29,796 bases of DNA. It comes from a virus. Below are positions 15,242-20,122 of the stretch, in pieces. Numbering within the stretch: position 1 is the first letter of the stretch; every line of letters starts with the position of its first letter. The notes beneath the pieces are model-generated. The model was not told the DNA's origin and did not search any database. It saw nothing but the letters and a program-made list of their open reading frames with translations. The stretch spans positions 1 to 29,796 of the IMG/VR virus record IMGVR_UViG_3300037493_000798; one strand, 5' to 3'. A program made the translations under genes and the position numbers.

Positions 15242-15249
15242 TATATTTG
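15242..15249 (+). promoter_or_regulatory. Possible promoter box before the terminator
   Basis: TATATTTG matches the -7 consensus TAnnTTTG and begins right after the stop codon at 15241. No good -33 TTTG is visible upstream. A transcript from here would run only about 60 nt before the terminator at 15289-15315. It may be a chance match or the start of a small RNA. Confidence 0.3.
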
Positions 15250-15288
15250 TACTGCATAATTTCATAATTTTAGATTAATTGTTTTATT

Positions 15289-15315
15289 AAACCCTTGCTT
15301 CGGTAGGGGTTTTTT
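15289..15315 (+). terminator. Intrinsic terminator of the late lysis unit
   Basis: AAACCCTTGC (15289-15298) pairs with GTAGGGGTTT (15303-15312) around a TTCG tetraloop and is followed by a T6 tract (15310-15315). The stem includes two G-U pairs. It closes the late region before the early promoter at 15369. Confidence 0.9.
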
Positions 15316-15347
15316 AGTTTCAGGAAAAATAAATTAAAATAATTGTA

Positions 15348-16684: not shown

Positions 16685-16703
16685 AAAATAATTGTTATAT
16701 TTG
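16670..16703 (+). promoter_or_regulatory. Promoter P3 upstream of the structured leader
   Basis: TTTG (16670-16673) and TATATTTG (16696-16703) are 22 nt apart, a good fit to the Bacteroidota -33/-7 pair. The transcript would start near 16709, at the first bases of the stem described at 16704-16800. Confidence 0.7.
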
Positions 16704-16800
16704 TATACGGTTTGGCTTCACACTATAAAACCGAAAGACGTTATTGAACCTCTTAATGAATTTGGACGTGAAGCCCCAAAGGATTTAAGGGGTTTTTTTA
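16704..16800 (+). ncRNA. Structured leader RNA, candidate transcription attenuator
   Basis: About 90 nt between promoter P3 and the replication genes, with no ORF. CGGTTT (16708-16713) pairs with AAACCG (16728-16733). GGCTTCAC (16714-16721), in the loop of that hairpin, is perfectly complementary to GTGAAGCC (16768-16775). AAGCCCC (16771-16777) can instead pair with GGGGTTT (16789-16795), forming a terminator followed by T7. The two pairings share 16771-16775, so they exclude each other, as in an attenuator. I do not recognise a known riboswitch class. Confidence 0.6.
16771..16799 (+). terminator. Intrinsic terminator within the leader
   Basis: AAGCCCC (16771-16777) pairs with GGGGTTT (16789-16795, one G-U), with a T7 tract at 16793-16799. 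It lies 21 nt before the next start codon, so it would limit expression of the replication operon. Confidence 0.75.
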
Positions 16801-16820
16801 TTTACTAAAAATTTAAAGTT

Positions 16821-17015
16821 ATGGAAGATTGGTTAAAATTTGATTGCAAATTAAGCCCCGAAAATGGAGAAAGTTTATTGGTTTCTGACGGAACTACAAT
16901 GTTATTTCAAATTTATAAAGACGGAAAAGATATAGGTGGAGTTGGTTTAAATAAAGAAGACGTTGAAAAAATACTGCCTTACTTATTAAAATTTTGTTAT
17001 AATGAACGGATATGA
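16821..17015 (+). CDS. Small protein after the leader, unknown function
   Basis: A 64-residue acidic protein containing SLLVSDGTTMLFQIYKDGK and GGVGLNKEDVEKILPYLL. First gene after the candidate attenuator. Overlaps the initiator-like gene by 14 nt. It may be a replication accessory or regulatory protein; this is only from position. Confidence 0.6.
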   Translation: MEDWLKFDCKLSPENGESLLVSDGTTMLFQIYKDGKDIGGVGLNKEDVEKILPYLLKFCYNERI

Positions 17016-17625
17016 ATTAAGCAGAAAATGGTTTGACTGGAGCTTTGAGAATCCTGAGCGAATCAATCCAAACCATACGGCACTTTATTTTTTTATAATA
17101 GAACACTGTAATCGTTTAGGATGGAAAGAGAAATTCGGACTACCAACAACAATGGCAAAAGAAGCAATTGGAATAAGAAGCTATAACACTTATATAAATA
17201 CGCTGAATGATTTAGTTGAGTTTGAGTTTATAAAATTAATTGAAAAAAGCAAAAATCAGTATTCAAGTAACATAGTCGCCCTATCAAATTTTGATAAAGC
17301 ACTTGATAATGCACTTGATAAAGCATTGATAAAGCACACGACAAAGCAAGGTGAAAGCATTAGTAGTATAGATAAACAAGAAACAAAGAACAACTATATA
17401 CCTGAGTTATCTGAATTTTTAGCTTATGCAATTGAAAAGGCTTCAACAATTAACCGAGAAGATGTTAAATTAAAATATGAATCTTGGATAGTAAACGACT
17501 GGAGTGTTACACTAAATAATAAAACACGTAAAATTGTAAATTGGAAAAGTACGTTATTAAACACTATTCCTTATTTACGCAAAGACGAAACTAATTTTTA
17601 TAAACCAAACATAATTCACGAATAA
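17002..17625 (+). CDS. Replication initiator-like protein with winged-helix N-terminus
   Basis: A 207-residue protein beginning MNGYELSRKWFDWSFENPE. The sequence NHTALYFFIIEHCNRLGW and PTTMAKEAIGIRSYNTY (residues ~22-65) reads like a winged helix of phage replisome organiser proteins, and similar proteins occur in Flavobacterium phages. The linker (DKALDNALDKALIKH, residues ~98-112) is coded by the repeats at 17291-17337. The C-terminal half has an NREDVKLKYESWIVNDW segment. It precedes a DnaB-like ATPase, as an initiator or helicase loader would. The last base of the stop overlaps the next ATG. Confidence 0.7.
   Translation: MNGYELSRKWFDWSFENPERINPNHTALYFFIIEHCNRLGWKEKFGLPTTMAKEAIGIRSYNTYINTLNDLVEFEFIKLIEKSKNQYSSNIVALSNFDKALDNALDKALIKHTTKQGESISSIDKQETKNNYIPELSEFLAYAIEKASTINREDVKLKYESWIVNDWSVTLNNKTRKIVNWKSTLLNTIPYLRKDETNFYKPNIIHE
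17291..17337 (+). repeat. Iteron-like direct repeats, candidate replication origin
   Basis: Four units of TTGATAAAGCAC: 17291-17302, 17303-17314 (one mismatch, TTGATAATGCAC), 17315-17325 (11 nt, last base missing) and 17326-17337. They lie inside the initiator gene, as in the lambda O gene origin. The missing base makes unit four read in another frame, so the DNA repeat is kept while the peptide is not, which favours a DNA-level role. Confidence 0.6.
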
Positions 17626-18653
17626 TGTATAAAAGACTAAAGGACGTATCTACTGAACTATTTTCAATACGAAACGAATTAAACATTAAAGGAAAATCAA
17701 TCGGTTGGGACTGGGAGTTATTACCTTACACAATTAAAGAGGGTTGCACGACTTATATAGGAGCAGCCCCCGCAAGTGGGAAAACTGAATTATGGTTTGA
17801 GTTTTTAATTAACCTTTCGTGTTTACACAATTGGAATCACGTTATTTTTTCACCTGAAACGGGAAGCGCAGCAGAAATTTACGCAGAACTTTGTTATAAG
17901 TATATCGGAAAACCTTACTACAAAAGTGAAAACACAATGACCCAATCGGAACAAATACAAGCTGAAATGTTTATTGATAAACACTTTATTGTAATTGACC
18001 CAATTGATGAGGATTTAACACTTGAACAATTTTATACAATGGTAGATGAGATTGAACGTAAAAACGAAATGACTATACACACGACAACAATAGACCCGTG
18101 GAATGAACTAACTGAAAATTATATTATGTCAGACTTAGGACGCGAAGATAAATACCTTAGCCGAATTTTAGGAATGGCACGAAGAAATGCACGAAAAACG
18201 AATCGACATAATTGCATAATTAACCACGTTCGTGACCAAGCACCGATAACAAAAGACGGAAACACTTTTTATCCTATGCCAACAGCTCGGGACTTTGCAG
18301 GTGGTCAAGTTTGGTTCCGTAAAGGATTAGCCGTTTTAATACCTTGGAGACCGCCAACGGGTTTGAGTGACGGTGACGGCAATGTATATGAAAAGAATGA
18401 AGTACATTTAAAATTAGCGAAAAGCAAACCAAAAGGAATTGGACTTTCAGGAACTTACAAAATGTTTTTAGACGTTTCTAAATATCAATATTATATGATT
18501 GACGCTTTTGGTAGGAGAATTTACGCACAAAGAAATAAATCTGAAAACACGAAACCAATATCAAATAGTTTTCCAACTTCAAAACCTGACATAGTAAACG
18601 GAAAAGAATTACTTTCGTTTAGCGAAAAAATGAATCAACAAACACCTTTTTAA
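17625..18653 (+). CDS. DnaB-like replicative helicase / RecA-fold ATPase
   Basis: A 342-residue protein with Walker A GAAPASGKT (46-54), a following FSPETG (75-80), a Walker B-like TTTIDPW (Asp157) and INHVRDQ at ~199-205. The order resembles the C-terminal ATPase domain of DnaB-type helicases. The usual N-terminal domain is absent. It probably unwinds phage DNA, loaded by the preceding initiator. No separate primase gene was seen in the window, so priming may rely on the host. The C-terminus ends NQQTPF. Two bases separate it from the next gene. Confidence 0.8.
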   Translation: MYKRLKDVSTELFSIRNELNIKGKSIGWDWELLPYTIKEGCTTYIGAAPASGKTELWFEFLINLSCLHNWNHVIFSPETGSAAEIYAELCYKYIGKPYYKSENTMTQSEQIQAEMFIDKHFIVIDPIDEDLTLEQFYTMVDEIERKNEMTIHTTTIDPWNELTENYIMSDLGREDKYLSRILGMARRNARKTNRHNCIINHVRDQAPITKDGNTFYPMPTARDFAGGQVWFRKGLAVLIPWRPPTGLSDGDGNVYEKNEVHLKLAKSKPKGIGLSGTYKMFLDVSKYQYYMIDAFGRRIYAQRNKSENTKPISNSFPTSKPDIVNGKELLSFSEKMNQQTPF

Positions 18654-18655
18654 TT

Positions 18656-18949
18656 ATGGACGAACTAACTATTATAACAGGAAAAGTAAATTTAGATACT
18701 ACCTATCTAAAAATTAAAATTAGCCTTGAAGAAATAAAAGAGAAACACGGACAAAGAACTGATTTAATAAACTCAATGGAGCGTAGTTTAGCAGACTTAC
18801 AACAAGTTAAAATTAGTTACGATGCAATCGAGAAAGAACTAAGAGCAGCACTTCAACAAAACTTTAGACTTGAAAAGCTATTAATGGAGGAAAAGTTTAA
18901 AAACAAAGATTTACAAACACAATTAAATTTTAAAAATATTGAATTATGA
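18656..18949 (+). CDS. Coiled-coil small protein
   Basis: A 97-residue protein with heptad-like leucines from ~residue 22 to 90 (KISLEEIKEKHGQRTDLINS, and the later EKELRAALQQNFRLEKLLME). It sits between the helicase and the methyltransferase. It may be a structural partner in the replication complex. The family is not recognised. It overlaps the next gene by 4 nt. Confidence 0.6.
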   Translation: MDELTIITGKVNLDTTYLKIKISLEEIKEKHGQRTDLINSMERSLADLQQVKISYDAIEKELRAALQQNFRLEKLLMEEKFKNKDLQTQLNFKNIEL

Positions 18950-19608
18950 AATATAGAATTTTAAATTTATATGCGTGTTTAGGTGGCAACCGTTACAAGT
19001 GGGACGAGATAGCAGACAACTTAGAAATTACGGCCGTTGAACTTGACCCCGAAGCAGCACGTTTATACAAAGAGAGGTTTCCAAAAGACGAAGTAATAGT
19101 AGCAGACGCTCATCAATATTTGTTAGACCATTACAAAGAGTTTGATTTTATTTGGAGTTCACCGCCCTGTCCTACTCATAGTCGTTTAGCGATGTCAAAT
19201 AAAACCAAAGAAAATTATATAAATAATTACCCTAACATGAATTTATATCAAGAAATTATTTTTTTACAATATTATTTTAATGGGAAATTTGTAGTTGAAA
19301 ATGTGATACCATATTATGAACCATTAATAACCGCACAAAAACGCGGAAGGCATTTATATTGGACTAATTTTAATTTACCGAATGAATTAAGTAAAAGGCA
19401 CATTCCTATGGATGGTAAAAACGAAATAAAAAGATTTTCAGAATTTCACGAAATTGATTTAAGTACATATAAAGGCGAACAAAGAAAAGATAAAATGGCA
19501 AAAAATTTAGTTGATTATGTAGCTGGTAAAACAATACTTGAAACAGCGTTAAATATCTACAAAAAGACGAATTTAAACCAAACTTCAATATTTGATTATG
19601 AGGTGTAA
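18946..19608 (+). CDS. Compact C5-cytosine DNA methyltransferase
   Basis: A 220-residue protein with C5 methyltransferase motifs: motif I NLYACLGGNRYKW (~7-19), motif II AVELD (~30-34), motif IV SSPPCPTHS with Cys75, motif VI VVENV (116-120), and QKRGR (131-135), similar to motif VIII. A motif IX/X-like segment (MAKNLVDYVAGKTIL) is near the end. The region between is only ~50 residues, so the target-recognition part is unusually short. It likely protects phage DNA from host restriction. The recognised site is unknown. Confidence 0.85.
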   Translation: MKYRILNLYACLGGNRYKWDEIADNLEITAVELDPEAARLYKERFPKDEVIVADAHQYLLDHYKEFDFIWSSPPCPTHSRLAMSNKTKENYINNYPNMNLYQEIIFLQYYFNGKFVVENVIPYYEPLITAQKRGRHLYWTNFNLPNELSKRHIPMDGKNEIKRFSEFHEIDLSTYKGEQRKDKMAKNLVDYVAGKTILETALNIYKKTNLNQTSIFDYEV

Positions 19609-20122
19609 AAACTGCAAAGAGAAATTTGAACCTAAAACCTTTCTGCAAAAATATTGCTTAAAAGAAGAATGTTTACGTGTTTTTGTAGCTGATGTAAAAC
19701 AAAAAACGTGGCAAAAAACAAAAGCAAAAGCAAAGCTGGATTTAATGACTTTGAGTGACTACCTTAAATTAACCCAACAAGTGTTTAATAAGTGGATAAA
19801 TCTACGTGATAAGGGGCTACCTTGTATAAGTTGCGATAAACCAATAACGGGACGTGTAAACGCTTCGCACTTTTGGAATGCAAACAACCATTACAACGTT
19901 CGATTTAATGAAGATAACGTTCATAGCTCTTGCATTACGTGTAACCAATTTCTCTCTGGGAATCTTTTGGAGTATAGAACACGCCTTATTTTAAAGATAG
20001 GTGAACAAAGATTTAACATTTTAGAAGCTGAAAGTAAGGAAACACGGAAATTCACAAAAGACGAACTACAACAATTGATTAAAGAATATAAAAATAAAAT
20101 AAAAGAAATAGACCTATATTAA
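19598..20122 (+). CDS. ninG: NinG/Rap-like recombination protein
   Basis: 174 residues counting from the ATG at 19598; an in-frame TTG at 19592 is possible but less likely. The start overlaps the methyltransferase stop by 11 nt. N-terminal cysteines (C3, C6, C20, C25) and an HNH-like core, LPCISCDKPITG (C76, C79), ASHFWNANN (H91), RFNEDNVHSSCITCN (C112, C115), match the lambda NinG family (Pfam PF05766), which act on Holliday junctions or recombination intermediates. It follows the replication genes and precedes the recombination pair. Confidence 0.85.
   Translation: MRCKNCKEKFEPKTFLQKYCLKEECLRVFVADVKQKTWQKTKAKAKLDLMTLSDYLKLTQQVFNKWINLRDKGLPCISCDKPITGRVNASHFWNANNHYNVRFNEDNVHSSCITCNQFLSGNLLEYRTRLILKIGEQRFNILEAESKETRKFTKDELQQLIKEYKNKIKEIDLY

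Follow-up and report, generated by a model that had tools for sequence, protein, structure and literature searches.

Classical attenuators with mutually exclusive structures place a terminator in the 5' leader. A small aptamer can also lie within the stem of an intrinsic terminator, as in the HMP-PP (thiS motif) riboswitch, which is found beside thiamin genes (PMC6478431). In phage HK022, the putL and putR elements are folded, cis-acting, promoter-proximal RNAs of the early operons, and put is described as an RNA of ~70 nt with two stem-loops just 3' of the early promoter (PMC9378689). Little seems to be recorded on the timing of early genes in Bacteroidetes phages, and our search of the open-access literature found no usable transcriptome of these phages and no description of an element like the one reported here. 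We analysed the window, which is the whole IMG/VR virus record IMGVR_UViG_3300037493_000798 (29,796 bases). Its source is a tailed phage with promoters of the Bacteroidetes pattern, and the cultured terminases closest to its own, at 33.8% identity, are those of Flavobacterium phages. As judged from comparative sequence analysis, positions 16708-16799 of the window encode a conserved, structured 5' leader RNA of ~90 nt, an undescribed RNA family ahead of a replication operon.

Results

The leader and its locus

The leader lies ahead of early genes of the phage. It consists of a P1 hairpin and a second hairpin, P2 capped by P3, that runs into a U-tract, and the loops of the two hairpins pair with each other (kissing loop). 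The parts of the locus, all on the + strand, are as follows.

16696-16703, +: promoter -7 element TATATTTG, Bacteroidetes sigma-ABfr-type, near-invariant in 102 aligned members
16708-16713, +: 5' strand of P1, CGGTTT; double changes in all 6 P1 pairs; P1 pairs among the top covarying
16714-16721, +: 5' kissing-loop strand GGCTTCAC, in the P1 loop; pairs with 16768-16775
16722-16727, +: conserved A-N-N-A-T-A of the P1 loop; four positions 99-100% conserved in 102 members
16728-16733, +: 3' strand of P1, AAACCG; covaries
16734-16745, +: single-stranded linker AAAGACGTTATT, family pattern AAG...TTATT; several positions 94-100% conserved, unpaired
16746-16756, +: 5' strand of the P2 terminator stem, GAACCTCTTAA; double changes in 10 of 11 pairs, 97.9% of cells paired
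16757-16760, +: internal loop TGAA, facing GGAT; 91-99% conserved
16761-16765, +: 5' strand of P3, TTTGG; the top three covarying pairs of the alignment are P3 pairs
16768-16775, +: 3' kissing-loop strand GTGAAGCC, in the apical loop of the terminator hairpin; covaries
16776-16780, +: 3' strand of P3, CCAAA; covaries
16781-16784, +: internal loop GGAT; conserved in the alignment
16785-16795, +: 3' strand of the P2 terminator stem, TTAAGGGGTTT; covaries
16793-16799, +: U-tract (T7), sharing bases with the foot of P2; near-invariant, with 6-8 nt as the longest T run in 91 of 98 distinct members
16800-16820, +: A-rich translation initiation region, without a second promoter
16821-17015, +: first gene after the leader, 64-aa protein of unassigned function
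17002-17625, +: initiator-like protein; weak replication-initiation O-like match (phrog_18020, E 0.0044)
17625-18653, +: replicative helicase-like protein (phrog_5482, E 6e-39; phrog_239 DNA primase/helicase, E 4e-13)

A first-pass annotation of this DNA had placed a promoter before the ~90-nt stretch, and TATATTTG is indeed present there, immediately abutting P1. The consensus of such promoters is TANNTTTG/TAHHTTTG with its G at -5, a spacing measured in Flavobacterium johnsoniae (PMC6847099), and by analogy with that spacing transcription should begin at about 16708, the first base of P1. No TAnnTTTG was found between the U-tract and the ATG (16800-16820) in the source genome. The leader's own promoter is the sole promoter-like site directly ahead of 16821-20122, a stretch from which expression would therefore need some read-through. 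Methyltransferase, Erf-like and exonuclease genes lie 3' of the helicase-like gene. Elsewhere in the window (15242-15320), TATATTTG is followed ~40 nt later by a strong terminator (AAACCCTTGCTTCGGTAGGGGTTT and a T run), which either closes a very short transcript or serves the preceding gene.

Covariation supports a single fold

We scored column pairs in an alignment of 93 distinct rows with an R-scape-like test, using the G statistic with average-product correction and, as the null, substitutions replayed on a FastTree tree. Twenty of the top 21 covarying pairs fell in P1, P2, P3 or the kissing helix. The kissing helix contributed 6 of its 8 pairs to the top 17 (E <= 0.01), the remaining two being near-invariant; 97.7% of its cells were paired, with double changes in 6 of 8 pairs and 26 distinct strings in the alignment. 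These counts are independent of the alignment model, because the covariance model behind the alignment did not include the kissing pairs. Over the whole fold, double changes occurred in 26 of 29 pairs, and of 2824 cells 96.9% were paired. P1, P2 and P3 had already emerged from a structure prediction on a sequence-only alignment, in which 17 of 20 pairs carried double changes. There were 149 G-U pairs versus 8 A-C cells, and the selected strand is therefore the transcript, an RNA of the + strand. Folding of the single sequence was only slightly better than that of shuffled sequences (z -1.6); where single-sequence folding is weak, the comparative evidence is decisive, and by base-pair covariation beyond phylogeny the alignment describes a structured RNA family.

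The most conserved bases of the family are unpaired: A..AUA in the P1 loop, AAG...UUAUU in the linker and UGAA/GGA in the internal loop, which might form tandem G-A pairs. The A-N-GU that opens the 3' kissing strand is also among them. The lone outsider among the top 21 pairs lies inside the linker, where the unpaired positions 16738 and 16740 covary strongly in a non-Watson-Crick manner (GA or AG), perhaps reflecting a tertiary contact or two sub-lineages.

These results bear on several proposals of the first-pass annotation. The 8-bp complementarity that it had noticed is real, GGCTTCAC being the perfect complement of GTGAAGCC, and it covaries with the terminator; the CGGTTT/AAACCG hairpin (16708-16713/16728-16733), whose loop contains the first arm, is also present, and the guess of a pseudoknot was right. 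The terminator had been drawn differently, as AAGCCCC/GGGGTTT followed by T7. Those letters exist, with T7 at 16793-16799, but the pairing is not conserved in relatives: only 63.5% of its cells were paired, no better than slid controls. Compensatory changes, which the annotation had proposed to look for, do exist in relatives. We rejected this hairpin, which is also the weaker one, at -8.3 kcal/mol versus -16.1 kcal/mol for the P2-P3 hairpin of the source. The conserved terminator stem pairs GAACCTCTTAA (16746-16756) with TTAAGGGGTTT (16785-16795), and P2-P3 of the members has a median of -16.9 kcal/mol versus -7.5 when shuffled. The idea of two mutually exclusive structures holds only for the AAGCCCC/GGGGTTT hairpin; because the conserved stem can form together with the kissing pairing, such competition is unsupported, and all covarying base pairs fit one fold. 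The 93-row test revealed no further covarying helix, and thus no conserved pairing that competes with the terminator. With a U-tract directly behind a stem that contains GC, placed between its promoter and the first gene, the leader has the sequence form of an intrinsic terminator or attenuator leader.

The proposal of a structured, terminator-bearing leader ahead of the initiator and helicase operon was borne out. It had been said to match no nameable class, in agreement with our search of Rfam 15 at gathering and relaxed thresholds, in which the window and 12 further member or sister loci had no match and weak hits were at chance level. Taken together, the earlier observation is partly confirmed and its interpretation partly supported.

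Distribution and gene context

Protein and pattern searches of IMG/VR yielded at least ~280 loci. The element itself was found, with a profile followed by covariance models R1 and R2, on at least ~180 distinct IMG/VR contigs after removal of duplicates. With the same kind of model, whose E-values are rough, we identified members in the cultured phages Flavobacterium FL-1 (E 7e-14), Cellulophaga phi10:1 (E 6e-9) and Cellulophaga phi18:3 (E 4e-10); Cellulophaga phi19:3 was weaker (E 1e-3), with a kissing pairing CCTTCAC/GTGAAGG visible by eye. The kissing pairing is retained with different letters in FL-1 and phi10:1. The element precedes gp024-gp026 in phi10:1, where gp026 is a DNA primase/helicase, and gp007-gp006 in phi18:3, where gp006 is annotated as a DNA replication protein. 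Klebsiella matches to the FL-1 element map within a topoisomerase gene, and we regard them as chance. A structure-only scan gave a score >= 40 at 177 of 3,319 promoter sites, versus 2 of 2,500 shuffled ones, and showed the same architecture in unrelated letters, that is, sister forms, in Flavobacterium columnare FCV-1 and Polaribacter Danklef. At least five cultured phages carry the element or a sister form. The covariance model found no match in crAss001, B124-14, Flavobacterium 11b, filifjonk9-1, Riemerella CRP5 or Cellulophaga phi38:1, phi40:1 and phiST, and Danklef fell below its cut-off despite the sister form. Querying cultured phages by DNA similarity to the element returned nothing useful.

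In all 101 testable members, an ORF on the same strand begins 2-45 nt after the element (mode 16-18 nt), which puts the leader at a set place between its promoter and the start codon. The first genes behind it fall into 61 protein clusters by a rough k-mer grouping; they include DnaD-like loaders or initiators, NUMOD4/HNH and GIY-YIG endonucleases, an MT-A70 methyltransferase and a ParB/methylase fusion, and are too diverse to point to a metabolite. Most of the ~30-kb genomes tested have one strong copy, and four loci have two. In Cellulophaga phages and in some contigs (L301, L307, L131, L135, L138, L139), a small hairpin, GGTAATCTTAAAACC or GGTATCTTAAAACC, recurs after the leader and ahead of the start codon. 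Inspection of the main-type alignment shows early stop codons behind the AUG of AATGAA, varying from member to member.

Sister leaders

A second type of leader has AGTAG...CGAA around the 3' kissing strand. All 21 sites that we anchored on these letters have the loop complement, with 0.44 expected. Among leaders of this type with kissing pairs, the genes that follow L002:7049, L104:6269, L116:4047, L214:8415 (- strand), L237:3938 and L288:5994 resemble NUMOD4/HNH endonucleases by eye. At 9 of the 23 sister-leader sites listed, the complete 5' kissing strand is repeated just before the start codon (L005:886, L027:4352, L032:1598, L039:409, L054:1253, L058:4294, L062:2025, L063:4340, L103:787), and the repeated strand and the loop change together (GGGCAG, GAGCAG, AAGCAG). 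Two more repeats, GTTGCAG, were seen by eye (L065:4224, L075:3314). The repeated strand of the sister leaders stands behind the U-tract. The terminator-loop strand of these leaders could thus pair with the translation start as well, which hints at a translational role. In the main type, such a repeat is rare (3 of 114).

A further form lacks P1 (L003:262-411, L099:4871-5020, L130:4695-4844); here AACAACCAC pairs with GTGGTTGT in the hairpin, the paired letters return where the gene starts, and an open frame in the leader translates by eye as PRGCGY..GGY..NNNH. Leaders with short U-tracts, namely that of phi10:1 and some sister types, may not terminate. We suggest, at slightly less than even confidence, that Flavobacteriia phages encode a superfamily of leaders whose 5' hairpin pairs with the terminator loop to make a new ligand- or protein-sensing aptamer, with several sub-types that have unrelated letters, the same architecture and private kissing sequences, before replication, methyltransferase or homing-type endonuclease genes.

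Discussion

The reading that we favour, and consider moderately probable, is that the leader is a cis-acting attenuator whose terminator embeds a kissing-loop aptamer for a putative ligand or protein. The transcript would begin with, or close to, the first base of P1; once P1 has folded, its loop would pair with the apical loop of the intrinsic terminator hairpin (P2-P3 and U-tract), giving a compact fold held around the near-invariant single-stranded bases. RNA polymerase would either stop at the U-tract and release an RNA of ~90 nt, or read through into the early replication and recombination operon, whose first start codon lies ~20 nt on. The conserved unpaired core would be the likely binding site of the factor behind this balance, which could be a small molecule, a protein of phage or host origin, or the polymerase itself; as a riboswitch ligand site the core is suggestive only. 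We infer termination and its regulation because the U-tract is conserved and no other promoter-like site lies between leader and gene; the ligand is postulated. Regulated termination is plausible, and the leader probably decides whether the downstream genes are switched on. Counting against this reading, the first genes are diverse, the search for a conserved antiterminator pairing that would account for switching found none, and some related leaders have short U-tracts.

The same features can be read in other ways. The leader might bind the elongating polymerase and make it ignore the adjoining terminator and others further along the early operon, like HK022 put, an unlikely alternative in our estimate. 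Its promoter-proximal position at the head of an early operon, usually in one strong copy per genome, its conserved unpaired bases and the comparable size and place of put would all agree with this; however, put is described as a pair of stem-loops, and the introduction to that account mentions neither kissing loop nor U-tract (PMC9378689), whereas the element here includes a terminator-like U-tract. That tract also argues against a 5' stability or translation element, in which the fold would shield the 5' end or tune ribosome access and the U-tract would be no terminator: a GC-containing stem foot with 6-8 T is the conserved form of an intrinsic terminator. Such an element would account for a fold that starts at about the predicted first nucleotide, for the nearly constant distance to the start codon and for the strand repeats of some sister leaders, but such repeats are exceptional in the main type, and we judge this explanation to be as improbable as polymerase modification.

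Promoter, folded body and terminator-like end also make up a complete unit of ~90 nt, as expected of a free-standing small RNA acting in trans, to which the adjoining gene would be incidental. Trans action needs no particular placement, yet an ORF on the same strand lies within 45 nt in 101 of 101 cases despite the 61 first-gene clusters, which makes this quite improbable. Chance complementarity beside an ordinary terminator would fit the unremarkable single-sequence folding; it is refuted by the covariation and by the number of contigs, and we assign it a negligible probability. Attenuation by a terminator-embedded kissing loop remains the reading that we favour. Compact, strongly covarying and present in cultured phages, the leader opens regulated termination in Bacteroidetes to direct tests.

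Comparison with the described systems places the phage leader as follows. It resembles the HMP-PP riboswitch in having a putative small aptamer within the terminator stem and an unusually conserved terminator loop with a possible pseudoknot, and differs in that an alternative P1 breaks the terminator stem of the HMP-PP riboswitch, whereas the covarying pairs of the phage leader fit one fold; it also stands before early genes rather than beside thiamin genes (PMC6478431). With HK022 putL and putR it shares a promoter-proximal, folded, cis-acting RNA of a phage early operon in one or two copies per genome, and it has a kissing-loop fold with a U-tract in place of two stem-loops, as compared by description only (PMC9378689). 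Like classical attenuators it carries a terminator in the 5' leader, but in the main type we saw neither a conserved antiterminator nor, on inspection, a conserved leader peptide. In guanidine-II and purine riboswitches, as in the phage leader, loop-loop pairing organises the fold, and the phage leader is set apart from both by the order of its helices and by its conserved bases.
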